DNA from: Terramyces sp. JEL0728 | Taxonomy: Eukaryota > Chytridiomycota > Chytridiomycetes > Rhizophydiales > Terramycetaceae | Length of the DNA stretch: 28,361 bases | NCBI GenBank assembly: GCA_027603945.1 | Contig: JADIIU010000151.1 | Coordinates: forward strand, 1-28,361 | Direction: 5' to 3' | Shown here: in pieces, positions 2,463 to 26,306 of the stretch | How the letters are laid out: each line of letters opens with the position of its first letter | How positions within the stretch are numbered: position 1 is the first letter of the stretch | The notes under the pieces: generated by a model | What the model was told of the DNA's origin: nothing | Seen by the model: the letters and a program-made list of their open reading frames with translations, nothing else | Database searches by the model: none | Program-made: the position numbers and the translations under genes

Positions 2463-2814
2463 ATGGCAGCAGCACCTCCATCCATTCCAGAACAGATAGA
2501 ACCTAGTGTCGTAGTTGATGCAGTAAACCCAGCCATTCCAGCTCCGGAGCTTGGGTATAACGCTCTAGAGGTAAATTCCCGTTCATCTGCAAATATCGAT
2601 GAGATTTTCTTGTTTCTAGTCTACACCCAGATTGAATCACCAGCAGACGTTCGAGAGTTCTCTACTCGTGATCCCTCGATTCAAGATCCCATTTCTGGAC
2701 CAACTTTACCATGAACAGAGAAATTGGACGATTAGCAGACACACTCGGTTCCTTATTCAAGATAACTTCCGACCACTGACTAAACAACGCTATCCATTCA
2801 CTTTACCAGCATAA
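2463..2814 (+). CDS. Putative two-exon small protein (110 aa)
   Basis: The ATG at 2463 follows a TATA-like CATATAAA at 2431-2438. The first frame is open for 83 codons, but removing a GT-AG stretch of exactly 19 nt (2612-2630, ending CTACACCCAG) joins codons 1-49 to a second frame that stays open to TAA at 2814, giving a 110-residue protein with an arginine/phenylalanine-rich C-terminal half. The 19-nt length equals that of firmly supported introns elsewhere in the window, but this one begins GTTT rather than GTA. AATAAA follows at about 2872, convergent with the zinc-finger gene ending at 2883. I do not recognise the protein. Without splicing the product would be 83 aa (2463-2714). Confidence 0.4.
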
Positions 2815-2882
2815 CCACTAATTTATTAAAGTTGGGAATTGGAGCACCTCATACATAGAGTGATATAATCCAAATAAACTTT

Positions 2883-3539
2883 TTATTTGTCATCAATATA
2901 CAGTTCGCCCCTACAAATACTACTCGGCTTTGCGTGTTTAGATTTCAAATGATTCCGCATATTATAGACTTTTTTCAATTTAAGATTGCAATACAGACAG
3001 CGAATCGATTTGTTCTCCACTTTCAACTTTACCGAACCTCTACTGCGCTTCGCTTTAGATGTCTTTGCCTTCTGGGTATTTACTTTTGCTGTATGGCTGA
3101 TCTCTGGTTGAGCAAGGAAGCCGAAATCATGAACTGGGACAGTACTTTTGTGTGCAGCGATTGAACCAACAGGATGTAGTGCAAAACCGCGGTTAGATTT
3201 ATCCATTTCTGTCTGAGCGGGTACAGCAAACATATCAAAGCTGTAATTCATTTGCACCTCTTCCATTGATTGACTGACAGCCATTTCCGCTTCTTGGTAT
3301 CTACTGTAATCTGGCTTTTGGGATAGGAACAAGCCATTGTTTGTTCCATCAATAAACAGTGCTGCTAAAGGCTGATCTATATAATCTGATGCAAGTGCGG
3401 TTGAAACTGCAATATCTGGACTGACTCTACTGAATCCAACTTTATTCAGATATTTAGGGCTGAAGCATTTTCCTTGAGATGGCGACAGTGGTAGGGTATC
3501 GATGCTTTCTTGAAGTTCCTGCGACGGGCTGTAAAACAT
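2883..3539 (-). CDS. C2H2 zinc-finger protein with SPDVAI-type motif (218 aa)
   Basis: Start chosen at the ATG at 3539: the frame extends a few codons further only through a non-ATG codon, and a TATA box (TATAAA on the minus strand, 3566-3571) lies about 27-32 bp upstream. Residues 39-49 read VSPDIAVSTAL, the family motif. Near the C-terminus a basic segment leads into one classical finger, C181-x2-C184-x12-H197-x4-H202, with HLKSKH at its end, identical to that ending in the next paralog. Likely a nuclear DNA-binding regulator of unknown target. The TAA stop overlaps the AATAAA signal (2882-2887). Confidence 0.82.
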   Translation of the reverse strand: MFYSPSQELQESIDTLPLSPSQGKCFSPKYLNKVGFSRVSPDIAVSTALASDYIDQPLAALFIDGTNNGLFLSQKPDYSRYQEAEMAVSQSMEEVQMNYSFDMFAVPAQTEMDKSNRGFALHPVGSIAAHKSTVPVHDFGFLAQPEISHTAKVNTQKAKTSKAKRSRGSVKLKVENKSIRCLYCNLKLKKVYNMRNHLKSKHAKPSSICRGELYIDDK

Positions 3540-3565
3540 TATTGTGGGTATCACGTTTCGAACTA

Positions 3566-3571
3566 TTTATA
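3566..3571 (-). promoter_or_regulatory. TATA box of zinc-finger gene ending at 3539
   Basis: The minus strand reads GCATATAAAT here, about 27-32 bp before the ATG. This short spacing leaves almost no 5' UTR and recurs at other genes in the window. Confidence 0.5.
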
Positions 3572-3672
3572 TGCTCACTCAATTTTGAGGCTTGACATGA
3601 CAATTTCTGTGGCCTACTGTAAATTATTTCACGAGATCAATACCCAATTGAATCGCCAAATACAAGGAATAT

Positions 3673-4170
3673 TCACAGTTTATTGTACTTTATATTATCT
3701 CCTTCAATTTTCGAATATATACTATGCTTGGATTTCAAGTGACTTTTCATTGATCTCGAAAGTTTGAGTTTGACTCTACAAACCGGGCATGTAAACCCCA
3801 GCTCTTCCTTTTGAATCATTGGAGGTTGTAGATTATTTTTCTGCAGACTGTTTTGCTGTTGCGCAGTGATTATCCGTTGATCTGAATCTGGAGATAGACG
3901 GCTCGAGGGATGCAAGAATTCATCCATGTACGGTAGATTGAGATCTGCATGCAAGACTGCGTGTATAGCTACATCAGGACTTACTTTATTCAGCAGGGCC
4001 TTTCTCCCATAAGGGCTATTTAAAATATTCAATTCTTCAGCAGTATGTAGCAATTTGCAATTGATTGTTAATTTTCCTTGGTAAGGTTCATTGGAATGGT
4101 ATTTTGTCAACTCGTCTTGAGTTGGATATTGATGCTGAAACATGTCCATTTCGACATTTGCATGTGTCAT
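3673..4170 (-). CDS. C2H2 zinc-finger protein with SPDVAI-type motif (165 aa)
   Basis: The first in-frame ATG is at 4170. Residues 63-73 read VSPDVAIHAVL followed by HADLNLP, the family motif, and the C-terminal finger is C128-x2-C131-x12-H144-x4-H149 with HLKSKH at its end. Probably a nuclear DNA-binding protein; target unknown. A TATA-like CATATAAA lies only about 10 bp upstream of this ATG, so the true start may be Met8 or Met10. An AATAAA lies inside the last codons, just before the TGA stop. The frame is open upstream of 4170 but lacks an ATG. Confidence 0.8.
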   Translation of the reverse strand: MTHANVEMDMFQHQYPTQDELTKYHSNEPYQGKLTINCKLLHTAEELNILNSPYGRKALLNKVSPDVAIHAVLHADLNLPYMDEFLHPSSRLSPDSDQRIITAQQQNSLQKNNLQPPMIQKEELGFTCPVCRVKLKLSRSMKSHLKSKHSIYSKIEGDNIKYNKL

Positions 4171-4473
4171 TCTTGCTGCTTTATATGGCTGTGCGAATAA
4201 TGTGGCCGTGCGTTGCCCATTTTTTGTTGCAGTTGTCGTCAAACGTATACTGCCTTATGTGAATCCTGATTGAATCGCTTTTTGATTGACCAATTTGCCG
4301 TCTAGTGTAATAGCCGCAGGAATTATCGAGCTAGAGCGAAAGCTGTGATTCCTAGATCCATTGATGCTACTACTTCTAATCCCCAACTTGATTCCAGAAA
4401 GTTGAAACCACGTGACCAATATAAAGATGAGTAATAATTATTCTATAAATAAAAAGAATTGCATTTTACTCTA
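4171..4473. promoter_or_regulatory. Divergent promoter region: E-box, CCAAT and TATA motifs
   Basis: This 303-bp spacer separates the minus-strand zinc-finger gene from the plus-strand acetate transporter. On the transporter side a perfect CACGTG palindrome (4409-4414, a bHLH-type site), CCAAT (4416-4420) and TATAAA (4420-4425) overlap in one short block, and a second TATAAA lies at 4444-4449, 30 bp before the transporter ATG. These motifs are read directly; their use is inferred. Confidence 0.5.
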
Positions 4474-5211
4474 ATGGCTGAAAGACAAACCCTCACCCAC
4501 GTTTATACGTCCAATTCCGGCCTTGAAGTGTTTGAAAAACAGGGGGAAAACAACACTTCCCAGCAACCAGGGCTGCCATCTTCCTACGGTTACAGAGAAG
4601 GAAACGCGGGAATGTTGGGACTACTAGGCTTCTTTCTCGCAGTATTTCCGTCATCAATACTAGAAGGAATATCACCAAAAATCTCGCAGCAAGCCATCTT
4701 TCCATACTTGACTGTTTTTGGCGGGTTTTTGCAGTTACTGGCTGGCAACAAGGACTATTACCTTGGAAACTCCTACACCGCATGTATCTTTACTGTGTTT
4801 GGGTTTCATTGGGTAGCGAAAGGCTTGATTGAATCAGGAATTCAGCTTATTCAGCCTGTTGTAGGACAGACCAGTGACGAGGATAGACCTACGGTTATCG
4901 GAATGTATTTACTTACCCTGACTATTGTAAATGCCGTATTCCTGGTTATTTCTTGGCACCATCCCAAATCATCTACCCTGCTGTTTTTTACGTTATTGTT
5001 TGTCACGTTAAAGATGCTTGGGGAAACTATAGGTGCGTTCAGCGGGGTAGCTGTGATTGGCCAGATTAGTGCATGGTTTGGAGTGGTTGGTTCGTTGTTG
5101 GCGCTGTATACTTTTATTGCGGAAGCTTATGCGGAGGAAGGTGTGGTGCTTCCAACCGGCAAATTCAACCAAGTCATTACAAAGAAGCAGGTCAAACAAA
5201 AACGAGACTAG
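4474..5211 (+). CDS. GPR1/FUN34/YaaH family acetate transporter (245 aa), intact copy
   Basis: Six-helix membrane protein of the AceTr family (yeast Ady2/Ato, bacterial YaaH/SatP), which moves acetate or related monocarboxylates across the plasma membrane. A soluble N-terminus of about 46 residues precedes the first helix, which begins GNAGMLGLLGFFLAV (from residue 43); this stands where the family has its NPAPLGL signature, so the proline-containing part is altered. A lysine-rich tail follows the last helix. The ATG at 4474 is preferred because it is the first ATG in frame and lies 30 bp after TATAAA. AATAAA is at 5221-5226. The gene converges on HUL5 with only 66 bp between stops. Codon 41 onward (base 4595) is the left boundary of the tandem duplication, so only this copy has the full N-terminus and promoter. 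Confidence 0.9.
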   Translation: MAERQTLTHVYTSNSGLEVFEKQGENNTSQQPGLPSSYGYREGNAGMLGLLGFFLAVFPSSILEGISPKISQQAIFPYLTVFGGFLQLLAGNKDYYLGNSYTACIFTVFGFHWVAKGLIESGIQLIQPVVGQTSDEDRPTVIGMYLLTLTIVNAVFLVISWHHPKSSTLLFFTLLFVTLKMLGETIGAFSGVAVIGQISAWFGVVGSLLALYTFIAEAYAEEGVVLPTGKFNQVITKKQVKQKRD

Positions 5212-5277
5212 TGGGTTTTAAATAAACGTTCAATGATTCGCAATAACCAATCAATACTAGACACAGTGCAAGATTTA

Positions 5278-7939
5278 TTAGGATAAATCAAATCCAGCAT
5301 TAGCATTAATAGCATACGACAATTTCCTATTGTTAAAAGTAACTACTCTTTCAGCACTCTTTTTGATTTATACATGGGAAGTTTAAGTAAATTGACACAG
5401 GTTGAAGCAGTGGGCAATCGTGATTGATCCTGAGTAGAAAATCTAATACAAAACTTTGGGTTCAGGTGACTAAATCCCAGCAGTGGGCCTCGCCGGTTAC
5501 TTGTGCAAAAAATAAGGAATTTCTCCAATTCTTGAGCAGTGAATTCTGATAATACTTGCCAAAACAAGACTATTGTTGGATGCTGGTCGTCAAACACTGA
5601 ATCATAAACGGTATTTTCTCTCAAGTTAACAAGGTTGATTGGTTGCTGATCTCCACTGATCAATAGCTGCAGTTCCGATTCGCTAAACATTGATAGCTTG
5701 TCTGGATAAACCAGGTCTCCTAGTCCTTTAAAGAAATATTGGCACTGCTGGCGACATTCTATGTTCAATTTGAAACTAGTTAGCAGGTAAATATATTTGA
5801 TCTTGTTGTCGTTGGTAACTTTGATATTTGATCCATCCGGAGCCAAATCAACCAGCCTTCCATTTGAAAAAGTTGTAAAGAACAGTCCCAATTCGTCTAC
5901 TTTTTCGTATTGCTTGATGAATAGCAAGTTCTTGTAGATATCTTTATCAAGCGAAGGGAGATCCTGTATATAGCTGTTCTTGTTTAACCATTTTGCCAGA
6001 AAGAATCGCGCAAATTGGGCTTCTACTAGAATTCCTTCCTGGAGTGCCTTGCCCATTATTCTGCCCAAGAATTCAAAATATTGAAGCGAGAGTTCATCAA
6101 CTGCGCTGGGGCTTGGATACAGGTCGTTTTGATCAGTCACTTTGAACAGTCCTAATTTTTCGTCAAAGGCTTCCTTGATTAGTTCATTAAGAAATTCTTT
6201 AAACAGACCACCCCCATCTGCAATTAATTAAAATTACCAATTCCGGCTTCTGCAGTACCATCTGGAGCAATAAAAGTAATCTGAATTCTTTGGGTTAATC
6301 CTTTGCCCAGCACATTCATATGCTTGAACCCATCTTCAAAAACATGACCTCTTCTAATTTCAACATTTTTACCCCGAAGCCCATCTGGATTTGGAAAGCT
6401 ACTCTGAAATATCCCAACACGCTCTTCAAACTGTATGAGAAAAGGTACATTCAGCAGTATCTGTTCAAGTGCAACAGGATTCACAGGATCAGAGAGCTTC
6501 CAAACCGATGGATCTACAACTGGTTTCCGATCATTTCTGGCATAGACTTGATTGAATATTTTACTGCAATTGTTTCGTATATACTCCATTCCGACAATCA
6601 TATTGATTTCAACCTGATTCATGAATAGCTTGACAACCAATTCCTTGATGCTTTTAATGTATTCCTTTTCAATCTGGGCTGAAAATTCCTCATCGGACAT
6701 TGTGAGCAGTTTGAACGCGTAAGTCTCATTGTACAACAGCAATTGGGCCCATTCACGGTCATTTTGCGGCAATTCAGTAGGCGCCTTAATACTCCATTTG
6801 CTCAAAACCAGAGGCAAGACCTCCATCTTGTTCTGGAAACGGTCAATAATGCCAACGACAAGCAAATATGATTCCAGTGTGTTGTGTTCCAAAATCTTTG
6901 TGATTGAATTTGAAAGTGCAATTAGCGATAATGATTTGATTTGCTTTTGGCCAAGATGCGTTTCTTCGTCAATGGCAAAGTTGAAAGTGTCTGGTGATAC
7001 AAGTTTCATGAAATGAGCGACTGCAGTGATGTATTTTACAGAATAATGGTCGAGCTTACTTCCGAGTTCAATCAATGCAATGAGGGTATCCAAATCTTGA
7101 GTATTTTTTTGTGATTCGCTAGTTGCTGGCTGTCCAAATGACGGGCTAAAGGAAGGGCTACTGAACGAGTGGTATGATATAGAAGGATTTCCAAACCCAA
7201 ATGAAGTGGTAAATGGACTTTTTGTGCCTTGGTAAACGCAATAGCTTGGCTCTGATTTGTAATGGTCCAGAATGATTTCCAGTTTATCCATTCCAATGTT
7301 GAAATCGTATTTCCCCAAACATACCTGAATGAACTGTTCCACATTATTTGAATCTATTAGCGAAACAGCCAATTGCCTCGTTTTTGCCTCTGAATAGTAC
7401 GGCTTCAAGTTTTCAAATATAGTAGATGCTTTAGGGAATGGAAGCATAACAGCTAGTGGAAGCGAATTTGGAGTTGGATCATCATATATTTTTCCAACCA
7501 ACCGTTTCAGCAAATATCCCAGTCTGGTTGGGTCAGAGGCAAAATGGATCCCATCAACCTGCATATCGTTGATATTACCAATCACCAAGCGATGGCTGTG
7601 CAGTTTCAAGCTAAATCCTTTCAAATAATCATGGATAATCACACTGTATTTATCCAATATTTCTCTGTCTCTTTTCTTTTCATAAAACATTAGGAAATCC
7701 CTCAATTCATTGCAGGTAAGTTGGTATGAAAAGGTATTTCGCAACTGCCTTACCGTATCAAAATTCATCTTGCGATTCCTATACCAATTCTGAATTTTTG
7801 CAGCCGATTCGTTTCTTTGCTTTTCTTCTTCACGCTGCTGCCGCAAGAACTGGTTCTGCTGTAGCAAGGATTGCTTTGAATGGGTAGAGCTGTTTCCCAG
7901 GTTAATTTGCCGCTGTCGCTTATAATCACCAAAAAACAT
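5278..7939 (-). CDS. HUL5: HECT E3 ubiquitin ligase, Hul5/UBE3C type (873 aa), copy A; three exons
   Basis: Exons 7939-6238, 6217-5347 and 5326-5278 (1702+871+49 nt) are joined by two 20-nt introns. Splicing restores the conserved HECT start GIDGGGLFKEFLNE and the conserved end KLSYAINANAGFDLS, both broken in the unspliced frames. The N-terminus (MFFGDYKRQRQINLG) and the IQ-type segment AAKIQNWYRNRK (46-57) match the Hul5/UBE3C arrangement. The catalytic cysteine is Cys841 in RLPTASTCVNLLKLP. The family extends ubiquitin chains on proteasome-bound substrates and helps clear misfolded proteins. Length is near yeast Hul5 (about 910 aa). The TAA stop overlaps AATAAA (5274-5279). It shares a 62-bp divergent promoter with the UspA gene and converges on the acetate transporter. 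Confidence 0.93.
5327..5346 (-). other. 20-nt intron 2 of HUL5 copy A
   Basis: Minus strand reads GTAGTTACTTTTAACAATAG. Retention would stop translation at once (TAG), while removal gives LKEKLSYAINANAGFDLS, the expected HECT C-terminus. Phase 2. A TAAC branch-like motif lies 5 nt before the end. Unit B equivalent: 13947-13966, same sequence. Confidence 0.93.
6218..6237 (-). other. 20-nt intron 1 of HUL5 copy A
   Basis: Minus strand reads GTAATTTTAATTAATTGCAG. It carries in-frame TAA; removal joins ATT-G to AT-GGG and yields the invariant HECT GIDGGG block. Phase 1. Unit B equivalent: 14838-14857, same sequence. Confidence 0.95.
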
Positions 7940-8001
7940 TTTGGATTAACTATAAATTGGTGAAATGGAGTGTGGCTGGCTTTCCAAATTATTCCACATC
8001 G
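7940..8001. promoter_or_regulatory. 62-bp divergent promoter between HUL5 and the UspA gene
   Basis: Only 62 bp separate the two opposed ATGs. It contains CTATAAATT, which can serve as a TATA-like box. Unit B carries the same spacer at 16560-16621 with one substitution. Both genes must share regulatory sequence here or use elements inside each other's coding regions. Confidence 0.55.
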
Positions 8002-8503
8002 ATGGCATTTAATGCAAAATACCTAGCAACAGATCCAGAACGCATCCTCTCCCACTCTACAGGTACCTATGCTTTTATCAGGAAACCTGTGTAAACGAAC
8101 TATAGTTTTTCCAATTGACAAATCCCAACACTGCCAAACAGCGATATCCTGGGCAATATCAAAAATTTTGAAACAGGACGACAAACTCATTCTGCTAAAT
8201 GTGCTTGCTTATAGTGGAGATGCAGAAACCATTAAACAGGAAGCAACTGATTTGCTTCTACGCGTATCAAAATCATTAATAGATTCTGGTTACTCAGTGA
8301 CTGGATTTCTATTAAAAGGCGAAGTGAAGCAGAGCCTGTGTGTAGAGTTGGACAAGATTAGACCTGACTTGGTAATTATTGGAACTCGGGGTGAGGGCGA
8401 TGGGCAATTTGGTAGCAATGCTATGTATTTGGCACGACACTGTTTATGGCCAGTATTAGTTGCACACCCTGCACCGAAATTGGATATCTTGGAAGAAGAA
8501 TAA
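8002..8503 (+). CDS. Universal stress protein (UspA fold), copy A (160 aa); two exons
   Basis: Exons 8002-8062 and 8082-8503 join over a 19-nt intron. The start at 8002 is preferred to the ATG at 8069, because that ATG lies inside the intron. The product has the UspA pattern: beta-strand RTIVFPIDKSQHCQTAISWA near residue 28, a second strand DKLILLNVLAY, then DLVIIGTRGEGDGQFGSNA with a glycine-rich nucleotide-binding loop (G-x2-G then GS), and a closing strand PVLVAHP. UspA proteins are small, often ATP-binding, cytoplasmic stress proteins; the loop suggests ATP binding, but the exact role is unknown. TAA overlaps AATAAA (8499-8504). The gene is divergent to HUL5. Confidence 0.88.
8063..8081 (+). 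other. 19-nt intron of the UspA gene, copy A
   Basis: Sequence GTACCTATGCTTTTATCAG. Removal joins an ATG-initiated first exon (20 codons plus 1 nt) to the UspA domain in frame. It lacks a clear TAAC motif but has TTTTAT near the 3' end. Unit B equivalent: 16683-16701. Confidence 0.85.
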
Positions 8504-8988
8504 AATTGCTAGTTTCCGTCCATGATGGAACTCACATTTTGCAGCACACCAAGTTTACATTCCAGCAGAGTTATGATCTTGCTTGTTTGAATTGAGGAGC
8601 TATTACTCGAGCTTGTGCGTCTGAATACTGGCGCCGATTTGATCAAGTATTTGATACATGTATAATGAGAACTGCATGTGATATAGCAATTGAAATGACG
8701 GGAAGCTTGGAAATCTCAGGGACGTTATCAAGGTCTAGAATCAATTTCTGCATTATATTACTAAAGGAGAGACACTTTAGTAGTAGGCAGCTCTAGCTGT
8801 CAACGCGTTCAAAAAGTTCAAACTTGGTAAACCTGTAGCGCAGACATTATGGCCTGGCAAAGAGCCCTACACCTACACATCAAACCCACAACCACAAGTT
8901 TATTTTTGATATATTGCCCACGCTGGATACCATGGCATCTTGATAGGATCCAGCAATGGTCTCATGACCTCACTTTGCTTTCATCTGG
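8504..8988. other. Intergenic spacer with unit-specific indels
   Basis: About 485 bp before the 7-TM gene. No supported gene. Compared with unit B (17124-17612) it carries many substitutions and several indels of 1-10 bp, in contrast to the almost indel-free coding regions, which supports its non-coding nature. Confidence 0.6.
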
Positions 8989-9963
8989 ATGTCATTCCTC
9001 AGATCTACTTGCGACTATAATACTAACCTCGTTGGCTGCACGAACCATACACCTCTAAAGAAAATCACACAGCTATTTCTATTTATCAACGTCCTCCTTG
9101 CAATTCCATATTTCTACTGTTTATACATTAAAAACAAACGCAAATTGGCTTGGTCCCCATTTGAAACATTATCAGTGCTTTGCTTGTCAATACAAGCGTT
9201 TTGCATTGCCAAATTGACGTTACTGCAATGGGATGTGTCTGATTTCAGCGATTACCAAATTAAACAACTTGTACAAGCGACCATATTTATAGAGTATTTA
9301 CAATACACGGCTGGCGCAGCTACCGGCGGACTGTTCTCGGAAATACTGATTAAGGCTACCAGTTCATTCGACTTGTATCAAACGGTATCTATCGGCGGCA
9401 AGGTAATCAACCCCGAACGCGCAATGAATGTATTAAAACTTGTATATGGAATAATAGCAATTACATTCACGGTACTGTGGATGGTCAACGGCACCAACTC
9501 TTACCAGGAATTCGTATTATTTCGACGGTGTTTTTACTTTGGTGCAGCAAGCGTGTGTCTGTTGATAATACCACCGGTTGTGTATTACCTGGGCAGTATA
9601 ATCACAGAAAAGTTGAATGCCAAGTATCAAAACAAACGACAGGAACCCAAGATTGCGCAGATTCGAGCTTTAAAATGTGTTATTCACTGGGTTATTTGGT
9701 TTACCAACGTTCCTATTGGAATCTATTCGATCGGAAATGCAATACTGAATGAAATATTCCAAGACGATCATTCCAAATTATTGCTAATTTCTGGAATTGT
9801 CAATGGATGGCAAGTAGTCTTTATTTTCGTGTTTGCGCTGTACTTGATGTACAAAGCACAGCCTAAAGACGAGAACGGATATCTTACCAGATGGCAATCA
9901 TCTCTTGACGCTTCAATTCAATTTAGCGAATCACCGAGATTTGTCAAGCGAATGGAGCTGTAG
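8989..9963 (+). CDS. Seven-helix membrane protein of unknown family, copy A (324 aa)
   Basis: Seven hydrophobic segments can be read: about residues 26-47, 58-78, 96-120, 150-168, 180-206, 229-252 and 264-288, preceded by a short N-terminus containing Cys and Asn residues and followed by a polar tail. The layout resembles a GPCR-like or sensory 7-TM protein at the plasma membrane, but no signature motif was recognised. There is no lysine within the last helix, so a retinal-binding rhodopsin is unlikely. The ATG at 8989 is the first in frame. The C-terminus differs between copies: copy A ends KRMEL, copy B ends KRMAAE because of an 11-bp indel at the stop. AATAAA lies about 35 bp after the stop; the gene converges on the two-finger zinc-finger gene. 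Confidence 0.75.
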   Translation: MSFLRSTCDYNTNLVGCTNHTPLKKITQLFLFINVLLAIPYFYCLYIKNKRKLAWSPFETLSVLCLSIQAFCIAKLTLLQWDVSDFSDYQIKQLVQATIFIEYLQYTAGAATGGLFSEILIKATSSFDLYQTVSIGGKVINPERAMNVLKLVYGIIAITFTVLWMVNGTNSYQEFVLFRRCFYFGAASVCLLIIPPVVYYLGSIITEKLNAKYQNKRQEPKIAQIRALKCVIHWVIWFTNVPIGIYSIGNAILNEIFQDDHSKLLLISGIVNGWQVVFIFVFALYLMYKAQPKDENGYLTRWQSSLDASIQFSESPRFVKRMEL

Positions 9964-10038
9964 GAGTGCTGTCGAGATGCTAACAGACCCCCACAATAAA
10001 GATCAACACTATAATAAACAAAATTTATTAAATACAAA

Positions 10039-10485
10039 TCAATTAATCAAATTCTCGATAGCGATGGTTTTCCTGGAAGCCAATTTCACCAAACTAGAGG
10101 CGCACTCTAGCATTCCTTCAACTTCCAAAGAAAGAGGTATCTTGCTTTCAATTAATTCTGTAGTAGCTTTCGGAGAGAGAGATTTCTTTTTCCCAGGAGT
10201 GTTGTGTATTCTCGAGTGTCGCTGCAGTGCGTCCAGTCTTGAAAACCCTCTGTTGCAAATCGAACATTGGAACGGTTTTATTCCAGAGTGGACGTATGAA
10301 TGGCGAACCAGGTGTTCAGTTCTGATGAACGAGAGAGGACATGAAGGGCATTGTTTACGCTGAGGCATTTCGACTGGTGTGGTAATAGGCGGTTTGAGTT
10401 TCTTTTTTCTTTCGCTAGATTTGTCTTTAAAAGGCTGTTCTGCTCTGTCTTTCGGAGCAGATGGCTTTGAATGTTGATCCTCCAT
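10039..10485 (-). CDS. Two-finger C2H2 zinc-finger protein, copy A (148 aa)
   Basis: A basic, lysine-rich N-terminus (residues 20-45) leads to two adjacent classical fingers: C46-x2-C49 to H66, and C74-x2-C77 to H94, joined by SGIKPFQ, close to the TGEKPF linker. This pair layout is that of fungal stress or carbon-response factors of the Msn2/Mig1 type, but sequence outside the fingers does not identify one. Likely nuclear and DNA-binding. The C-terminal leucine-rich part (about 105-148) could be a regulatory helix. Copy B has one extra glutamate near residue 13 from a 3-bp in-frame indel, a sign of selection for frame. Start at the ATG at 10485. Confidence 0.85.
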   Translation of the reverse strand: MEDQHSKPSAPKDRAEQPFKDKSSERKKKLKPPITTPVEMPQRKQCPSCPLSFIRTEHLVRHSYVHSGIKPFQCSICNRGFSRLDALQRHSRIHNTPGKKKSLSPKATTELIESKIPLSLEVEGMLECASSLVKLASRKTIAIENLIN

Positions 10486-11023
10486 TTTCTTTCTTCCGCC
10501 TTTTTATAGTTCGTTGCAATTCAGGAAGCTTTTGCGCTCATTTTCTAGTCAAATTGCGTGCTTGGTTAGGAGTCGGGACTCACGTGACAAACGCCCCACA
10601 GTTGATTGTGGGGAACAGAGATAGACATTGTATTGAATACAGGAACAATGGATATTGTTGCACTTGAATTGATACCAGTGTTTGGCACTTTTATTCTTGT
10701 TTACAGTGTTTCCCAACAGCAGCATTATATTTTCATGGCTCGATACAAGTGGGGTAAGTGATGTGAGTGCTCTTGTGGAAGCGACTCTAGCTTCCATTTG
10801 CAATAACGATAACCAAAGGCGATGGCTTGACCACTAGAATGAGCTGCTGCCAATGTAAACGGAATTAGAATTTTCGATGGACTCGTTGTCGCGATTTAAA
10901 GTCGGATATCCTTATAATCCGTTAAATTAGACTGTATTTCATTTGGACTGCTGCAGTTCGACGGCAAAGTTGCCGATATCAGACACGTCAGATGTCTTCA
11001 CGTCACTCACAACTTTTCAAGAA
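10486..11023. promoter_or_regulatory. Divergent spacer with CACGTG and a perfect inverted repeat
   Basis: About 540 bp between the zinc-finger gene and the five-exon gene. It holds CACGTG at 10581-10586 and, 7 bp further on, CCCCACA-GTTGAT-TGTGGGG (10594-10613). Both are kept in unit B (19232-19237 and 19246-19265) although the surrounding DNA has several indels of 7-10 bp. ACGTCA occurs twice near the downstream ATG (10985-10990, 11000-11005). Confidence 0.5.
10594..10613. repeat. Perfect 7-bp inverted repeat with 6-bp loop
   Basis: CCCCACA / TGTGGGG arms around GTTGAT. Conserved in unit B at 19246-19265. Could bind a dimeric zinc-finger factor or form a hairpin; function is inferred only from position. 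Confidence 0.6.
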
Positions 11024-12479
11024 ATGGCAGAAGTTAGTAGAGCACCAGCGTACGCTGGGAGATATCACTTGATTAATGCCAACTTTTTCAAACCAGAGAA
11101 AATTGATTTGTCAAACTTGCCCAATGATTTAAAACAGATGATTATGGAGCAATCCATCAACAGACTTTACCAGTACGATGCAAAAAAAGTTACGAGTCGG
11201 TCTGAGCAGAAATACAGTGTGTTGGATGCTAAAACACTATTAGCAATGAAAAAGAAAAGACTGGAAGCAGTTTATACCCGAGGATTCCTGTCCGATCCCA
11301 AAGAATTATATCGCACACTCGGTACTTTCTATTAACCAAGGCGATCCAACCCTGGATGCAGAAAACTTGCTGTACGAAACCCTCCAAATAGATACTGGCG
11401 ACGACAAGAACAGGAAATTTGAATCCGAGGCTCAAAAAGAAGCTACTCAGCAAAAGAAACAACAAGCCAAGATGAAAATGAAATTTAGAGAAGTGCCGAA
11501 ACTAAGTACAAACGGATTCAGATATATTAAAGATAAACTATCAAAATCAAATACGAGAATTGGGTCTGTAAAGTTTGGCATACCATTTGCAGAAGTTTGT
11601 GAAAGAGATGAGCGCGAACATGTCTACGATACCATTCAGATTGTATCAGCTAATGACAAAAAGGGTATCTGTGTCTAATATAGTCGACTGGAATAATCTG
11701 GAGGTCGATGAAGACAAAAAGACATTTTTTATCAACGTCTACAACAAGTACATTACATCACAAAAGACTGAAGAGATAGAGCATCCCAAACCAAAGAAAA
11801 AACATTCCGTGAAAAACAGATCTGCAGATTCCGCTACCAGCAAGGTAAAATACAGCAGCAAACAAATTGAATCTGCATTGGGAATAAAAAGAGAAGACCA
11901 CACAAGCGAAACTACAGATAAATTCTTTTCAACAAGAGATGATTTCTATGAACAGCGAAACAGACTAAACTACAGATTGTCTGAAGACCTTGATCGGCTG
12001 GATTACGACCGCAAACAAAACTTTCAGCGTAAAGTTCGTGCATTCGACTTGTCCAAAAAAGCACAATGCTTGGATGATTTAAATACCATGAGGCAGAAAG
12101 CACATGAGGAACGCAGAGAAGGTACTCGCAGCTAACCCAGTGCGCAAGAAACTGATTGAAACCCATCCTTGGTTTAACGAGCTTATCACAAAAGTGGTGG
12201 TATTAAATGGCGTAAAACGGGATGTAACTCCAGCTGAATCAATCATTCTGGACCACATTAGAGGGTAAATGCCAATAACATAGATTGATTGAAGATCAAG
12301 TCCGATTTACAAAGCAAGTATTTTTACACTTAATTCGCTTATTACCAACCAAAGACTTTTTAAAAGATGAAGTACAGAGAATAATTAGATTTATAAAGAG
12401 CCATGAAATAATTACAGAGCGTGATTACTTGGAAGTTGTTGAGTTGTCCGGGCATTCCATTCAATTTGAAACTGACTAG
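11024..12479 (+). CDS. Unrecognised 459-aa protein, copy A; five exons
   Basis: Exons 11024-11321, 11341-11664, 11684-12121, 12141-12264 and 12284-12479 (298+324+438+124+196 nt) are joined by four 19-nt introns; together they give one continuous frame of 460 codons. The protein is charged and largely helical in character, with a KKQQAKMKMKF stretch, a lysine-rich linker (KPKKKHSVKNR), a coiled-coil-like segment (YEQRNRLNYRLSEDLDRLDY and following) and a helical C-terminal domain beginning near HPWFNELITKV. No signal peptide or membrane segment. I do not recognise the family. The ATG at 11024 is the first in the frame, but the frame is open upstream to 10943 without an ATG, so an earlier exon is possible. 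AATAAA starts 3 bp after the stop. Confidence 0.8.
11322..11340 (+). other. 19-nt intron 1 of the 459-aa gene, copy A
   Basis: Sequence GTACTTTCTATTAACCAAG, with in-frame TAA if retained. TTAAC branch-like motif. Splicing gives LYRTLGDPTLDAENLL. Unit B: 19993-20011. Confidence 0.9.
11665..11683 (+). other. 19-nt intron 2 of the 459-aa gene, copy A
   Basis: Sequence GTATCTGTGTCTAATATAG. Splicing gives DKKVDWNNLEVDED. Unit B (20336-20354) has T for C at the 11th base, the last difference seen between the two units. Confidence 0.88.
12122..12140 (+). other. 19-nt intron 3 of the 459-aa gene, copy A
   Basis: Sequence GTACTCGCAGCTAACCCAG. CTAAC motif 4 nt before the end. Splicing gives HEERREVRKKLIETH. 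Unit B: 20793-20811. Confidence 0.9.
12265..12283 (+). other. 19-nt intron 4 of the 459-aa gene, copy A
   Basis: Sequence GTAAATGCCAATAACATAG. Retention stops translation at once (GGG TAA). Splicing gives DHIRGLIEDQVRF. Unit B: 20936-20954. Confidence 0.9.
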
Positions 12480-12533
12480 TGAATAAAAAAGTTTACTGCG
12501 TTTTATTTTCATTGGCAGTTGCTTTTTTGATTG

Positions 12534-13451
12534 ATGGAGATATTACAGCACTGCAACAGCTCAAAACCAAATATTTCGGGAACACTGCTCTCTTTGCTTA
12601 TATCACCAGCAGATTACGAATACGACAATGATCTATCGCTTTTGGTGTCAGGATCGACAGCATCGGTCGCACTTGAAAACCTCCAAGTTGAGCTTATCAT
12701 CAAAAAGCTTTCGCAATACAAATCGGTATGGATTGCGGCATTTCCTGATCAATATATTCCATCTCATCCAAATATAAAATTCAAGGGAGATTTGTATCAG
12801 CTATATTTATGTGACAAAGTACCAAACTTACCAGAATTACATTGGAAAGACAAAGAGGATTGTTATGAAATCAAGCATTTTACTTTGGATACTGTGGATT
12901 ATGTGATGCAGCACTCTACAATCGACTATCCTAGAGAATATATAGAAAAGCTTGCTGTGAAATACAGCCATTTGACTGCAGTTATTTTTTGCAACAACAA
13001 ACCAGTATCGTGGTGTCTGACTCATTTAGACTTGTCGATTGGATTGATGGGAACAGTGGAAAGTCATCGGGGAAAAGGACTGGCAAAGAAGTGTGCGGCC
13101 ATGGTATTAAATCACCATTGCGAATGGCTTAAAGACAAGATTGACTTTTTTTCGTACTGCTACATCAAGGACGATAATATTGCAAGTTCCAAAACTATGA
13201 AGGGTTGCGGGTTGAGAAGGAAACGCGGGAATGTTGGGACTACTAGGCTTCTTTCTCGCAGTATTTCCGTCATCAATACTAGAAGGAATATCACCAAAAA
13301 TCTCGCAGCAAGCCATCTTTCCATACTTGACTGTTTTTGGCGGGTTTTTGCAGTTACTGGCTGGCAACAAGGACTATTACCTTGGAAACTCCTACACCGC
13401 ATGTATCTTTACTGTGTTTGGGTTTCATTGGGTAGCGAAAGGCTTGATTGA
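12534..13451 (+). CDS. GNAT acetyltransferase, copy A: truncated and fused at the duplication junction (305 aa)
   Basis: The first 226 codons are identical to the intact copy at 21205-21933 and include the acetyl-CoA loop SHRGKGLAKK (R-x-x-G-x-A, residues 178-187). At 13213/13214 the sequence switches to the acetate transporter gene in a different frame, adding 79 unrelated residues that begin LRRKRGN. The native end from Phe227 (FVPTGNYVRWLRLDFE), which forms the last beta-strands of the GNAT fold, is lost. The copy has also lost its own AATAAA; the next is that of the truncated transporter near 13848. Activity is doubtful. Start chosen at 12534 as the first ATG, 54 bp after the preceding gene's stop. 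Confidence 0.88.
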   Translation: MEILQHCNSSKPNISGTLLSLLISPADYEYDNDLSLLVSGSTASVALENLQVELIIKKLSQYKSVWIAAFPDQYIPSHPNIKFKGDLYQLYLCDKVPNLPELHWKDKEDCYEIKHFTLDTVDYVMQHSTIDYPREYIEKLAVKYSHLTAVIFCNNKPVSWCLTHLDLSIGLMGTVESHRGKGLAKKCAAMVLNHHCEWLKDKIDFFSYCYIKDDNIASSKTMKGCGLRRKRGNVGTTRLLSRSISVINTRRNITKNLAASHLSILDCFWRVFAVTGWQQGLLPWKLLHRMYLYCVWVSLGSERLD

Positions 13452-13830
13452 ATCAGGAATTCAGCTTATTCAGCCTGTTGTAGGACAGACTAGTGACGAG
13501 GATAGACCTACAGTTATCGGAATGTATTTACTTACCCTGACTATTGTAAATGCCGTATTCCTGGTTATTTCTTGGCACCATCCCAAATCATCTACCCTGC
13601 TGTTTTTTACGTTATTGTTTGTCACGTTAAAGATGCTTGGGGAAACTATAGGTGCGTTCAGCGGGGTAGCTGTGATTGGCCAGATTAGTGCATGGTTTGG
13701 AGTGGTTGGTTCGTTGTTGGCGCTGTATACTTTTATTGCGGAAGCTTATGCGGAGGAAGGTGTGGTGCTTCCAACCGGCAAATTCAACCAAGTCATTACA
13801 AAGAAGCAGGTCAAACAAAAACGAGACTAG
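13231..13830 (+). pseudogene. Acetate transporter, copy B: 5'-truncated at the junction
   Basis: The remaining transporter sequence starts at 13214. The first ATG in the native frame is 13231, Met47 of the intact protein, which would give a 199-residue protein starting directly at the first helix. The cytoplasmic N-terminus, the native start and the whole promoter with its CACGTG/CCAAT/TATA block are missing; upstream is the interior of the GNAT gene. All six helices are intact, with only silent changes seen against copy A. It could be translated only from a read-through transcript of the truncated GNAT gene, so it is probably a pseudogene. Confidence 0.8.
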
Positions 13831-13897
13831 TGGTTTTTTAAATAAACGTTCAATGATTCGCAATAACCAATCAATACTAGACACAGTGTAAGATTTA

Positions 13898-16559
13898 TTA
13901 GGATAAATCAAATCCAGCATTAGCATTAATGGCATACGACAATTTCCTATTGTTAAAAGTAACTACTCTTTCAGCACTCCTTTTGATTTATACATGGGAA
14001 GTTTAAGTAAATTGACACAGGTTGAAGCAGTGGGCAATCGTGATTGATCCTGAGTAGAAAATCTAATACAAAACTTTGGGTTCAGGTGACTAAATCCCAG
14101 CAGTGGGCCTCGCCGGTTACTTGTGCAAAAAATAAGGAATTTTTCCAATTCTTGAGCAGTGAATTCTGATAATACTTGCCAAAACAAGACTATTGTTGGA
14201 TGCTGATCGTCAAACACTGAATCATAAACGGTATTTTCTCTCAAGTTAACAAGGTTGATTGGTTGCTGATCCCCACTGATCAATAGCTGCAGTTCCGATT
14301 CGCTAAACATTGATAGCTTGTCTGGATAAACCAGGTCTCCTAGTCCTTTAAAGAAATATTGGCACTGCTGGCGACATTCTATGTTCAATTTGAAACTAGT
14401 TAGCAGGTAAATATATTTGATCTTGTTGTCGTTGGTAACTTTGATATTTGATCCATCTGGAGCCAAATCAATCAGCCTTCCATTTGAAAAAGTTGTAAAG
14501 AACAATCCCAATTCGTCTACTTTTTCGTATTGCTTGATGAATAGCAAGTTCTTGTAGATTTCTTTATCAAGCGAAGGTAGATCCTGTATATAGCTGTTCT
14601 TGTTTAACCATTTTGCCAAAAAGAATCGCGCAAATTGGGCTTCTACTAGAATTCCTTCCTGGAGTGCCTTGCCCATTATTCTGCCCAAGAATTCAAAATA
14701 TTGAAGCGAGAGTTCATCAACTGCACTGGGGTTTGGATACAGGTCGTTTTGATCAGTCACTTTGAACAGTCCTAATTTTTCGTCAAAGGCTTCCTTGATT
14801 AGTTCATTAAGAAATTCTTTAAACAGACCACCCCCATCTGCAATTAATTAAAATTACCAATTCCGGCTTCTGCAGTACCATCTGGAGCAATAAAAGTAAT
14901 TTGAATTCTTTGGGTTAATCCTTTGCCCAGCACATTCATATGCTTGAACCCATCTTCAAAAACATGACCTCTTCTAATTTCAACATTTTTACCCCGAAGG
15001 CCATCTGGATTTGGAAAGCTACTCTGAAATATCCCAACACGCTCTTCAAACTGTATGAGAAAAGGTACATTCAGCAGTATCTGTTCAAGTGCAACGGAAT
15101 TCACAGGATCAGAGAGCTTCCAAACCGATGGATCTACAACTGGTTTCCGATCATTTCTGGCATAGACTTGATTGAATATTTTACTGCAATTGTTTCGTAT
15201 ATACTCCATTCCGACAATCATATTGATTTCAACCTGATTCATGAATAGCTTGACAATCAATTCCTTGATGTTTTTAATGTATTCCTTTTCAATCTGGGTT
15301 GAAAATTCTTCGTCGGACATTGTGAGCAGTTTGAACGCGTAAGTCTCATTGTACAGCAGCAATTGGGCCCATTCACGATCATTTTGCGGCAATTCAGTAG
15401 GCGCCTTAATACTCCATTTGCTCAAAACCAGAGGCAAGATCTCCATCTTGTTCTGGAAACGGTCAATAATGCCAACGACAAGCAAATATGATTCCAGTGT
15501 GTTGTGTTCCAAAATCTTTGTGATTGAATTTGAAAGTGCAATTAACGATAATGATTTGATTTGCTTTTGGCCAAGATGCGTTTCTTCATCAATGGCAAAG
15601 TTGAAAGTGTCTGGTGATACAAGTTTCATGAAATGAGCGACTGCAGTGATGTATTTTACAGAATAATGGTCGAGCTTACTTCCGAGTTCAATCAACGTAA
15701 TGAGGGTATCCAAATCTTGAGTATTTTTTTGTGATTCGCTAGTTGCTGGCTGTCCAAATGACGGGCTAAAGGAAGGGCTACTGAACGAGTTGTATGATAT
15801 AGAAGGATTTCCAAACCCAAATGAAGTGGTAAATGGACTTTTTGTGCCTTGGTAAATGCAATAGCTTGGCTCTGATTTGTAATGGTCCAGAATGATTTCC
15901 AGTTTATCCATTCCAATGTTGAAATCGTATTTCCCCAAACATACCTGAATGAACTGTTCCACATTATTTGAATCTATTAGCGAAACAGCCAATTGCCTCG
16001 TTTTTGCTTCTGAATAATACGGCTTCAAGTTTTCAAATATAGTAGATGCTTTAGGGAATGGAAGCATAACAGCTAGTGGAAGCGAATTTGGAGTTGGATC
16101 GTCATATATTTTTCCAACCAACCGTTTCAGCAAATATCCCAGTCTGGTTGGGTCAGAGGCAAAATGGATCCCATCAACCTGCATATCGTTGATATTACCA
16201 ATCACCAAGCGATGGCTGTGTATTTTCAAGCTAAATCCTTTCAAATAATCATGGATAATCACACTGTATTTATCCAATATTTCTCTGTCTCTTTTCTTTT
16301 CATAAAACATTAGGAAATCCCTCAATTCATTGCAGGTAAGTTGATATGAAAAGGTATTTCGCAACTGCCTTACCGTATCAAAATTCATCTTGCGATTCCT
16401 ATACCAATTCTGAATTTTTGCAGCCGATTCATTTCTTTGCTTTTCTTCTTCACGCTGCTGCCGCAAGAACTGGTTCTGCTGTAGCAAGGATTGCTTTGAA
16501 TGGGTAGAGCTGTTTCCCAGGTTAATTTGCCGCTGTCGCTTATAATCACCAAAAAACAT
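13898..16559 (-). CDS. HUL5: HECT E3 ubiquitin ligase, Hul5/UBE3C type (873 aa), copy B; three exons
   Basis: Exons 16559-14858, 14837-13967 and 13946-13898, with the same two 20-nt introns (14838-14857, 13947-13966). Full length and intact: N-terminal IQ-type segment, GIDGGG HECT entry, catalytic Cys841 in RLPTASTCVNLLKLP, end AGFDLS. It differs from copy A by roughly a dozen mostly conservative residues (for example L/I in the FSLKxHSH segment, A/T in LIxLIEL, S/N in YIKxIKEL, P/S in DPVNxVAL, R/G near the C-terminus), with no coding indels. Both copies therefore look functional. TAA overlaps AATAAA as in copy A. Confidence 0.93.
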
Positions 16560-16621
16560 TTTGGATTAACTATAAATTGGTGAAATGGAGTGTGGCTGGC
16601 TTTCCGAATTATTCCACATCG

Positions 16622-17123
16622 ATGGCATTTAATGCAAAATACCTAGCAACAGATCCAGAACGCATCCTCTCCCACTCTACAGGTACCTATGCTTTTATCA
16701 GGAAACCTGTGTAAACGAACTATAGTTTTTCCAATTGACAAATCCCAACACTGCCAAACAGCGATATCCTGGGCAATATCAAAAATTTTGAAACAGGACG
16801 ACAAACTCATTCTGCTAAATGTGCTTGCTTATAGTGGGGATGCAGAAACCATTAAACAGGAAGCAACTGATTTGCTTTTACGCGTATCAAAATCATTAAT
16901 AGAGTCTGGTTACTCAGTGACTGGATTTCTATTAAAAGGCGAAGTGAAGCAGAGCCTGTGTGTAGAGTTGGACAAGATTAGACCTGATTTGGTAATTATT
17001 GGAACTCGGGGTGAGAGCGATGGGCAATTTGGTAGCAATGCTATGTATTTGGCACGACACTGTTTATGGCCAGTATTAGTTGCACACCCTGCACCGAAAT
17101 TGGATATCTTGGAAGAAGAATAA
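16622..17123 (+). CDS. Universal stress protein (UspA fold), copy B (160 aa); two exons
   Basis: Exons 16622-16682 and 16702-17123 over the same 19-nt intron (16683-16701). It differs from copy A at two residues: D/E in SLIxSGYS, and glycine to serine in GTRGExDGQFGS, within the predicted nucleotide-binding loop, so the copies might differ in ATP binding. TAA overlaps AATAAA. Divergent to HUL5 copy B. Confidence 0.87.
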
Positions 17124-18590: not shown

Positions 18591-18677
18591 AGCTGTAGGA
18601 GTGTGCTTGTCGAGATGCTAACAGACCCCCACAATAAAGATCAACACTATAATAAACAAAATTTATTAAATACAAAA

Positions 18678-19694: not shown

Positions 19695-21150
19695 ATGGCA
19701 GAAGTTAGTAGAGCACCAGCGTACGCTGGGAGATATCACTTGATTAATGCCAACTTTTTCAAACCAGAGAAAATTGATTTGTCAAACTTGCCCAATGATT
19801 TAAAACAGATGATTATGGAGCAATCCATCAACAGACTTTACCAGTACGATGCAAAAAAAGTTACAAGTCGGTCTGAGCAGAAATACAGTGTGTTGGATGC
19901 TAAAACACTATTAGCAATGAAAAAGAAAAGATTGGAAGCAGTTTATACCCGAGGATTCCTGTCCGATCCCAAAGAATTATATCGCACACTCGGTACTTTC
20001 TATTAACCAAGGCGATCCAACCCTGGATGCAGAAAACTTGCTGTACGAAACCCTCCAAATAGATACTGGCGACGACAAGAACAGGAAATTTGAATCCGAG
20101 GCTCAAAAAGAAGCTACTCAGCAAAAGAAACAACAAGCCAAGATGAAAATGAAATTTAGAGAAGTACCGAAACTAAGTACAAACGGATTCAGATATATTA
20201 AAGATAAACTATCAAAATCAAATACGAGAATTGGGTCTGTAAAGTTTGGCATACCATTTGCAGAAGTTTGTGAAAGAGATGAGCGCGAACATGTCTACGA
20301 TACCATTCAAATTGTATCAACTAATGACAAAAAGGGTATCTGTGTTTAATATAGTCGACTGGAATAATCTGGAGGTCGATGAAGACAAAAAGACATTTTT
20401 TATCAACGTCTACAACAAGTACATTACATCACAAAAGACTGAAGAGATAGAGCATCCCAAACCAAAGAAAAAACATTCCGTGAAAAACAGATCTGCAGAT
20501 TCCGCTACCAGCAAGGTAAAATACAGCAGCAAACAAATTGAATCTGCATTGGGAATAAAAAGAGAAGACCACACAAGCGAAACTACAGATAAATTCTTTT
20601 CAACAAGAGATGATTTCTATGAACAGCGAAACAGACTAAACTACAGATTGTCTGAAGACCTTGATCGGCTGGATTACGACCGCAAACAAAACTTTCAGCG
20701 TAAAGTTCGTGCATTCGACTTGTCCAAAAAAGCACAATGCTTGGATGATTTAAATACCATGAGGCAGAAAGCACATGAGGAACGCAGAGAAGGTACTCGC
20801 AGCTAACCCAGTGCGCAAGAAACTGATTGAAACCCATCCTTGGTTTAACGAGCTTATCACAAAAGTGGTGGTATTAAATGGCGTAAAACGGGATGTAACT
20901 CCAGCTGAATCAATCATTCTGGACCACATTAGAGGGTAAATGCCAATAACATAGATTGATTGAAGATCAAGTCCGATTTACAAAGCAAGTATTTTTACAC
21001 TTAATTCGCTTATTACCAACCAAAGACTTTTTAAAAGATGAAGTACAGAGAATAATTAGATTTATAAAGAGCCATGAAATAATTACAGAGCGTGATTACT
21101 TGGAAGTTGTTGAGTTGTCCGGGCATTCCATTCAATTTGAAACTGACTAG
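19695..21150 (+). CDS. Unrecognised 459-aa protein, copy B; five exons
   Basis: Exons 19695-19992, 20012-20335, 20355-20792, 20812-20935 and 20955-21150, with 19-nt introns at 19993-20011, 20336-20354, 20793-20811 and 20936-20954. From exon 3 to the end it is identical to copy A; before that only a few substitutions occur (for example A to T in IVSxNDKK). The protein is intact in both units. AATAAA begins 3 bp after the stop, and the GNAT gene starts 54 bp downstream. Confidence 0.8.
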
Positions 21151-21204
21151 TGAATAAAAAAGTTTACTGCGTTTTATTTTCATTGGCAGTTGCTTTTTTG
21201 ATTG

Positions 21205-26146: not shown

Positions 26147-26306
26147 GTTTGAAACAGTTCCTGAATTCTTGTCAATAAAATTATAGTTTCTGTTATTTGG
26201 TATTCCGTTGGAGTGAAATATTCACAATAATCCTTTGACACTATCCTATGAATTACACTCTGATTATCGAAAAGGCACCAAAAACTTTATAAAAATCTTT
26301 AACGTT

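Follow-up and report, generated by a model that had tools for sequence, protein, structure and literature searches.

The window, a 28,361-nt stretch of contig JADIIU010000151.1 from the 15-Mb genome of the chytrid Terramyces sp. JEL0728, contains three genes interrupted by very short introns. The HECT ubiquitin ligase gene (5278..7939, minus strand), whose relatives are named ubiquitin-protein ligase E3 C, is composed of three exons and two introns of 20 nt. Intron 1 (6218..6237, minus strand; GTAATTTTAATTAATTGCAG) and intron 2 (5327..5346, minus strand; GTAGTTACTTTTAACAATAG) each have the branch A at nucleotide 14 and a tail of 6 nt. When both are removed, the ligase is intact, with AGIDGGGLFKEF present and KEKLSYAINANAGFDLS at the C-terminus. 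The universal stress protein (Usp) gene (8002..8503, plus strand) consists of two exons and a 19-nt intron (8063..8081, plus strand) without a YTRAY branch motif. The third gene (11024..12479, plus strand) is conserved among chytrids and has no assigned function; its 459-aa protein matched no Pfam family. It comprises five exons and four introns of 19 nt (11322..11340, 11665..11683, 12122..12140 and 12265..12283, all on the plus strand). Intron removal yields both the 459-aa protein and the universal stress protein.

The earlier note on this DNA had placed these seven introns, and the proteins of relatives or the depositors' gene models support their positions and their lengths of 19-20 nt. 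In the ligase gene, the depositors' model P0001 excises exactly 6218-6237, and the motif joined across this intron is found in P0002, P0003 and P0007. The residues joined across 5327-5346 match those of Boothiomyces P0003 and Gorgonomyces P0007. The spliced 459-aa protein is identical over its full length to the depositors' P0121, with all four introns concordant. Relatives align across the join of intron 1 of this gene, while three of five relatives carry two additional residues alongside the join of intron 2 (11665-11683). The intron at 8063-8081 is the only one in the window that is not forced by the reading frame, because the ORF 8027-8503 is open without its removal. Boothiomyces P0141 has SHSTGNLCKRTIVFPID spanning the 8063-8081 join, and the depositors' Usp model P0140 omits eight more residues beside the intron. 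Overall, the depositors' models are exact for five of the seven introns. All of the Terramyces introns described here are known from DNA and protein comparison, from which we infer splicing.

Each intron recurs in a second unit, B, at 13947..13966 (minus strand; copy of 5327-5346), 14838..14857 (minus; 6218-6237), 16683..16701 (plus; 8063-8081), 19993..20011 (plus; 11322-11340), 20336..20354 (plus; 11665-11683), 20793..20811 (plus; 12122-12140) and 20936..20954 (plus; 12265-12283). All copies are identical except that at 20336..20354, which bears one substitution. Fourteen introns, as had been proposed, is therefore correct as a count but not as independent support, because unit B is a tandem duplication with 98.1% identity. 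The two units differ at one of 135 intron bases and at 101 of 8619 aligned positions overall; these differences are too few for any inference, and a reading of intron constraint from the comparison was rejected.

Our frame-based intron scans covered about 279 kb, or 1.9% of the genome, and address coding sequence. A motif search for GTA followed by TAA(C/T) near (C/T)AG gave 55, 73, 47 and 18 matches at 19, 20, 21 and 22 nt, compared with 8.2 on average for lengths of 45-69 nt, while four control motifs showed no peak at 19-22 nt. The same motif was also in excess at 8-11 nt, as in part was the CTA control. In a scan for frame-restoring segments that used no position weight matrix (PWM), GT-AG pairs numbered 45, 65, 42 and 20 at 19-22 nt, with only 4 at 18 nt, 8 at 23 nt and on average 12.4 across lengths of 40-119 nt. 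The peak was absent from the eight other end pairs whose length profiles were compared. The AA-AA pair, which is outside that set of eight, totalled 188 at 19-22 nt, above the 172 of GT-AG, a surplus that we take as base composition. A PWM-free gene model returned 58 GT-AG introns of 19-22 nt, whereas the three pairs of control ends yielded 6, 9 and 2. At its other lengths up to 150 nt, GT-AG gave 111 against 133, 152 and 155 for the controls, and between 150 and 800 nt it gave 70 against 73, 82, 71 and 80, with no excess. A first coding-score threshold had been too strict (3, 7, 1 and 2 hits at 19-22 nt) and was discarded.

The PWM motif model predicted 278 introns, every one different in sequence, with 69, 125, 68 and 16 at 19-22 nt; this model was run with GT-AG ends only, and its training at fixed acceptor distances favours tails of 5-6 nt. 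The 35 introns anchored by homology were all 19-22 nt long. In a genome-wide motif search, 74 of the first 100 matches listed (of 542), from parts of contigs C1-C7, were 19-22 nt long. The total was not in excess (542 forward matches, 592 for the reversed control), so the signal lies in the length distribution alone, and the pattern sees lengths from 19 nt upwards. The 100 matches listed include two pairs of identical introns, apparently from a duplicated segment of C4.

Chance GT-AG matches were rejected as the source of the 19-22-nt signal by the control motifs and end pairs, and longer introns (>22 nt) were rejected as a class by the length scans to 800 nt together with inspection. In-frame stops, found in 56 of the 68 introns of 21 nt, are uninformative, given that the gene model favours stops. 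Thus, the ultrashort introns of 19-22 nt are the sole intron class detectable in the coding sequence of the 1.9% sample, although 23 nt may include a few genuine introns. The intron population of this coding sequence spans a few nucleotides in the range of about 15-22 nt, as expected of an ultrashort, uniform set. The class is not a peculiarity of the window but occurs across the sampled genome. The earlier note had called for a genome-wide length histogram; in the sampled coding sequence, the GT-AG peak is solely at 19-22 nt. The proposed length of exactly 19 or 20 nt holds for the seven window introns but not for the wider sample. The genome is intron-rich: at least one intron was predicted in 150 of 170 gene models, false introns included, and extrapolation from the 278 PWM introns gives an estimate of 15,000 or more for the genome.

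The donor consensus is AAG/GTAATT; position +5 is G in no more than 20% of the introns, and position -1 in 54%. On the coding strand, all seven window introns start with GTA and end with AG, as claimed, but about 11% of the introns in the wider sample lack the GTA start, an example being a Prp8 intron that begins with GTTGAT. A branch motif was found in 247 of the 278 introns, with the A at nucleotide 14 in 118, 15 in 103 and 16 in 20, and with a tail of 5 nt in 124 and 6 nt in 112; in the remaining 31, not even a loose TRA motif is present close to the 3' end. The PWM-free intron sets agree with these branch positions and contain none at 13. YTRAY with the A at 14-16 and a tail of 5-6 nt is present in 190 of the 278 introns, preceded in the A14 class by T (55%) and A (46%), and among these 190 the branch position and the tail length are independent (p = 0.89). 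The unusual geometry that had been anticipated can thus be specified: the branch A is nucleotide 14-16 of the intron, and 5-6 nt follow it. In one gene with two copies, the intron is 21 nt in one and 20 nt in the other through a one-base difference, which puts the branch A at 15 or 14 with a tail of 6 nt in both, and the spliced frames are identical across 86 residues. U12-type introns have AT-AC or GT-AG ends and the branch sequence TCCTTAAC. In Terramyces, the AT-AC pair showed no length peak in the frame-restoring scan and no TCC occurs among the bases preceding YTRAY, which argues against a U12-type identity.

The genome encodes a U2 snRNA with an intact GUAGUA, as well as SF1 and SAP30BP, and Prp8 is full length once six introns of 19-22 nt are removed. 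A U2AF65-like match scored 251.7 bits, below the curated cut-off of 310.3, in a frame that was read with internal stops. Together with the GT-AG ends and the branch sequence complementary to U2, the U2 snRNA, Prp8, SF1 and the U2AF65-like gene bear out the view that these introns are spliceosomal in every feature open to testing here. Of the snRNAs sought, U2 was found, but U1 and U6 were not. Canonical U1 and U6 carry ACUUACCU and ACAGAGA, respectively. No Rfam match to U1 was obtained in the Terramyces genome, and 14 control genomes likewise gave none; at the gathering score, 26 long Terramyces sources (148 + 130 kb) gave no match to known RNAs. Neither of two U1-like pattern matches, in C133 and C24, has an Rfam match, and the one in C133 lies within a reading frame that is phospholipase C-like by eye; both were rejected. 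Two weak Rfam U6 matches proved to overlap the two copies of a single reading frame that contains an intron. One U6 pattern search gave no match and another gave five (C4, C5, C14, C32 and C65), and the two that were read, in C32 and C65, resemble coding sequence by eye and are not U6.

Taken as a whole, these introns are most probably the product of ordinary U2-type chemistry acting on a single ultrashort class that has shrunk to a geometric floor. Each intron would be excised from the RNA as a loop of 14-16 nt and a tail of 5-6 nt. The 5' splice site would pair through nucleotides 1-6, with U1 first and then with U6, while the U2-branch duplex would occupy about nucleotides 9-15 with A14 bulged. 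The floor at A14 would then mark the limit at which both duplexes can still form, about 2 nt apart. The 5-6-nt tail would be as short as it can be and still reach the active site of the second step, and a polypyrimidine tract would not fit into it. The introns may have been driven down to this floor, whether by deletion bias or by selection for compactness, and kept at most 3 nt above it. The duplex geometry is drawn from the standard U1/U6 pairing model, on which it leans because U1 and U6 were not found. A floor of the A14 type is not universal, as the branch A of Stentor is at 10-11 in the part of the report consulted (PMC9505925). A further step, in which the whole intron set of this fungus has been compressed to a floor of abutting duplexes while U1 and U6 co-diverged, with U rather than G at +5, is speculative, and we regard it as unlikely. 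If it were true, diverged U1 and U6 would escape the standard models, and the grid of A14-16 by 5-6 nt would be a readout of two separate spliceosome rulers.

The same ultrashort introns could owe their length band to deletion bias against some other threshold, such as protein bridging by SF1, U2AF or Prp40, a reading that we rate at somewhat below an even chance. Mikrocytid introns have been explained by deletion bias against a functional threshold, in the portion of that study used here (PMC10245619), and with SF1 and U2AF65-like genes present, recognition proteins could fix the spacing. However, two spacings that vary independently and an abrupt edge at A14 point to local limits of geometry more than to a limit on total length, and protein limits would be compatible with them. 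A second, longer intron population would have to reside in the genome beyond the sample or in untranslated regions, to which frame scoring of a sample of about 279 kb is blind. In its favour, 26 of the first 100 genome-wide matches listed are 23-50 nt long; yet they are thinly scattered over 18 lengths with at most 3 each, three gene-model introns (27, 32 and 39 nt) located within or next to conserved domains turned out to be artefacts when inspected, and no excess over controls was seen outside 19-22 nt, so that such a population seems improbable.

Frame restoration by itself does not separate removal from RNA from other routes, and the segments might instead be sequencing errors, translational bypass sites or DNA that is removed in another nucleus in the manner of ciliates. 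We know of no programmed DNA elimination of the ciliate kind in fungi. The GT-AG ends, the branch motif at set distances, the U2 snRNA, the complete Prp8, the missing peak in the eight other end pairs compared and the exact use of five of the seven window introns by the depositors' models together make a non-spliceosomal origin extremely unlikely.

Shrinkage of U2-type introns to a geometric floor can be set beside the known systems, for each of which part of the published report was used. The claim that these introns are near the shortest known stands when 19-22 nt is compared with the lengths in Stentor, nucleomorphs and mikrocytids. Like Terramyces, Stentor coeruleus is not a parasite; all of its annotated introns are ultrashort, and they are AU-rich, with GT-AG ends and a near-fixed branch, and are spliced by the major spliceosome. 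Its introns measure 15 nt in 93% of cases and otherwise 16 nt, and nucleotide 10 or 11 is the branch A, followed by a tail of 5 nt, whereas those of Terramyces are 19-22 nt, with A14-16 and a tail of 5 or 6 nt. The portion consulted describes no strong branch consensus in Stentor, as opposed to YTRAY in 190 of 278 introns here, a last exon base that is usually not G (G in 54% here) and introns in 18% of genes, compared with 150 of 170 Terramyces gene models, false introns included (PMC9505925). The nucleomorph of Bigelowiella natans has the closest lengths (18-21 nt) and, as in Terramyces, many introns per kb; this relict nucleus of an endosymbiont is 373 kb in size, contains 865 introns and has a shrunken U1 and U5 (PMC6461891), whereas the fungal genome measures 15 Mb. 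Mikrocytid introns share the very narrow length range but are 16-17 nt, number 224 in Mikrocytos mackini, against the 15,000 or more estimated for Terramyces, and belong to an obligate parasite with a reduced spliceosome; the introns of microsporidia, which are fungal relatives, are called few and relatively short, a comparison by description rather than by length (PMC10245619). Among Stentor, the nucleomorph and the mikrocytids, a near-fixed branch with a short tail, as found in Terramyces, was seen for Stentor only in the parts consulted. Other chytrids, including Batrachochytrium in the same order, have intron-rich genes like Terramyces (PMC5364385, in part).

We take Terramyces to be a free-living soil saprotroph. 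Ultrashort uniform introns were previously described in heterotrich ciliates, a relict algal nucleus and mikrocytid parasites, in the portions of the reports used (PMC9505925, PMC10245619, PMC6461891), and the fungal case suggests that the trait requires neither a giant cell nor strong reduction of the genome. An earlier report of a fungus with such introns was not found in the literature searched, which does not include the presumed genome paper. A fungal example places the trait near the well-studied yeast spliceosomes, and the spacing grid would supply thousands of natural examples of a minimal loop and tail, making the minimum splicing geometry testable; Terramyces genes thus offer a natural route to the smallest intron that a splicing machine manages. 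On the practical side, two of the three depositors' models seen for the intron-bearing genes of the window (P0001 and P0140) err beside such introns.

The seven introns proposed for the window proved to be correctly placed, each being 19 or 20 nt long, starting with GTA and ending with AG on the coding strand. Their removal restores the HECT ligase (6218–6237 and 5327–5346, minus strand), the universal stress protein (8063–8081, plus strand) and a 459-aa protein (11322–11340, 11665–11683, 12122–12140 and 12265–12283, plus strand). The reading frame forces six of them but not the stress-protein intron, where the ORF at 8027–8503 is open without removal. All seven recur in unit B, although this unit is the second copy (13214–21884) of a tandem duplication of ~8.6 kb, with 98.1% identity to the first (4595–13213).

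From end to end, the spliced 459-aa protein equals P0121, one of the depositors' proteins, and the five relatives in the alignment are continuous across each of its four joins, with two extra residues adjoining the second join in three of the five. The first HECT join (6218–6237) agrees with the depositors' P0001, the Boothiomyces protein P0003, the Gorgonomyces protein P0007 and P0002; P0001 matches with 100% identity over 85% of the region used in the search. At the second (5327–5346), P0003 and P0007 agree, P0001 ends falsely before the join and P0002 terminates at it; the depositors' model of this gene (5278–7939) thus carries a false C-terminus, being wrong at the tiny intron. The residues joined across the stress-protein intron (8063–8081) are present in the Boothiomyces protein P0141. 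The depositors' model of this gene (8002–8503), P0140, lacks 8 further residues beside the 19-nt intron, and P0142 lacks 12.

Terramyces sp. JEL0728 is a chytrid of the order Rhizophydiales, and its assembly comprises 15,016,339 bases in 231 contigs, the window being the entire contig C151. We analysed 29 sources totalling 287.6 kb, of which ~279 kb (1.9% of the genome) was left after masking of unit B in the window. In addition to the window, nineteen stretches were picked by place alone (14 of them consecutive on contig C1), six of 10 kb for their HECT or Prp8 genes, and three loci of 3 kb because RNA or pattern searches had pointed to them. Motif counts, which tested the 19–22 nt lengths against chance, covered 20 fetched stretches and the unmasked window.

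Intron lengths were examined without any splice-site model by counting, for each pair of end dinucleotides, the segments whose removal joins two open, coding-like stretches. GT-AG segments numbered 45, 65, 42 and 20 at 19, 20, 21 and 22 nt, with 4 at 18, 8 at 23 and 4 at 24 nt, on a background averaging 12.4 over 40–119 nt (maximum 27, at 44 nt). None of eight other end pairs with printed length profiles peaked at 19–22 nt; the AA-AA pair, known from its total and not from a length profile, reached 188 against 172 for GT-AG. When a gene model was given a uniform prior on lengths of 10–150 nt and "GT" and "AG" as the sole splice input, 58 GT-AG introns fell at 19–22 nt, against 6, 9 and 2 for three control pairs. 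The other lengths in this range gave no excess (GT-AG 111; controls 133, 152 and 155), nor did 150–800 nt (GT-AG 70; four controls 73, 82, 71 and 80). Since the GT-AG peak is confined to 19–22 nt and other lengths stay at control level, a single intron class is detectable in the coding sequence of the sample. The lengths of exactly 19 or 20 nt hold for the window introns, but the wider sample spans 19–22 nt.

A position weight matrix (PWM) model, trained on these 58 introns, iterated and run with GT-AG ends only, predicted 278 introns at 19–22 nt (69, 125, 68 and 16, respectively), every sequence being different. Beside this band lay 1 at 17, 2 at 18, 4 at 23 and none at 24 nt, and the predictions outside it, 194 altogether, were scattered over 10–150 nt. 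A looser run yielded 442 at 19–22 nt, with a background of ~10 per length. Extrapolation from the sample suggests a genome total of ~15,000 to 22,000 introns. The genome-wide motif GTAA...CTAAC...TAG, to which lengths below 19 nt are invisible, gave 542 matches, no excess over the reversed control; among the first 100, 74 were of 19–22 nt and 26 of 23–50 nt.

Homology anchors 35 introns: 22 within Pfam matches, six in Prp8 and the seven of the window (9, 13, 9 and 4 at 19, 20, 21 and 22 nt). Prp8 was assembled by removing introns of 20, 19, 22, 21, 21 and 21 nt, and the 2329-aa product aligns unbroken with human Prp8 over residues 6–2311, covering all six joins; joins 1 and 2 are gap-free in the printed part of an alignment. 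The 22 Pfam-anchored predictions of 19–22 nt lie in five models with well-known domains (PurF-like, Snf1-like, Rsp5-like, iron alcohol dehydrogenase and dihydrouridine synthase), hand-picked from 117 with at least two predicted introns. Three longer predictions, two within domains (39 and 27 nt) and one just beside a domain (32 nt), were rejected as artefacts because the conserved protein continues through each.

A branch-like motif was found in 247 of the 278 introns. Counted from the first intron nucleotide, its A lies at 14 in 118, 15 in 103, 16 in 20 and elsewhere in 6, and the tail between this A and the intron end is 5 nt in 124, 6 nt in 112 and another length in 11. Branch position and tail length vary independently of each other (p = 0.89) in the 190 introns that have YTRAY at A14–16 and a tail of 5–6 nt. 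Among the 19–22 nt matches of the PWM-free sets, none had YTRAY with A at 13, and a few had it scattered at 5–12. In the A14 class the motif is preceded by T (55%) and A (46%), giving the consensus TAYTAAY at positions 9–15, of which 11–15 are fixed by the selection itself; it is complementary to GUAGUA of U2. The donor consensus is AAG|GTAATT (278 introns). Its +5 position is T in 49% and G in 20%, in contrast to the usual GTAAGT, and is G in 12 of the 74 genome-wide matches of 19–22 nt among the first 100.

Two sub-threshold Rfam matches to U6 sit in one reading frame on two contigs 98.9% identical; as both lie in an intron-bearing frame, they were rejected as U6 genes. The same intron is 21 nt in one copy (L010:1513–1533) and 20 nt in the other (L011:1513–1532), with one T missing. 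The spliced frames are identical across the 86 residues read; if the intron is retained, one copy runs into stops and the other goes out of frame. The one-base difference shifts the branch A from 15 to 14 and leaves the tail at 6 nt.

If the A lies at 14, pairing at the 5' splice site would occupy positions 1–6 and branch pairing 9–15. Since about two nucleotides would be spared between them, the floor at A14 may mark the point where both duplexes just fit. For Stentor, PMC9505925 gives a 5-nt tail and a branch A at 10–11, that is, a shorter loop. Given this similar tail (5–6 nt here), the tail may be a more general limit than the loop.

The inventory of snRNAs and branch-recognition proteins that the earlier note had called for was filled in part. 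U2, Prp8, SF1 and SAP30BP were found in the genome, as was a U2AF65-like protein scoring below its family's curated cut-off. The searches returned no U1, as in 14 control genomes equally without a match, so that absence is not implied, and no canonical U6, in a search that would miss a U6 gene interrupted by an intron.

Judged by title and the start of the abstract, none of the open-licence PubMed Central papers among the matches listed is concerned with such introns in a fungus. "JEL0728" is mentioned nowhere in those searched, and the presumed genome paper lies outside that set. The passages checked in PMC5364385, PMC13391722 and PMC11649378 contain no statement on such introns, and the word "intron" is absent from PMC3207900. 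The depositors may have noticed these introns themselves, because their gene models contain them.

With gene names given by eye, the ~8.6-kb duplication carries the HECT, stress-protein, membrane-protein, zinc-finger-like and 459-aa genes, together with the greater part of a transporter-like gene; across the junction, an acetyltransferase-like frame continues into another frame of the latter. On the minus strand, 3–4254 holds several related reading frames with a common motif like VSPDVAI.TAL, some with C-X2-C pairs, which are perhaps zinc-finger proteins. Three similar multi-pass membrane proteins, starting MSSAFVFE.GATVLS.YNSLEL, stand in a row at 22711–26146, and 26217–27529 contains repeats of the type NGNLENMKWLKENNCPWN, which we take to resemble ankyrin-like repeats.
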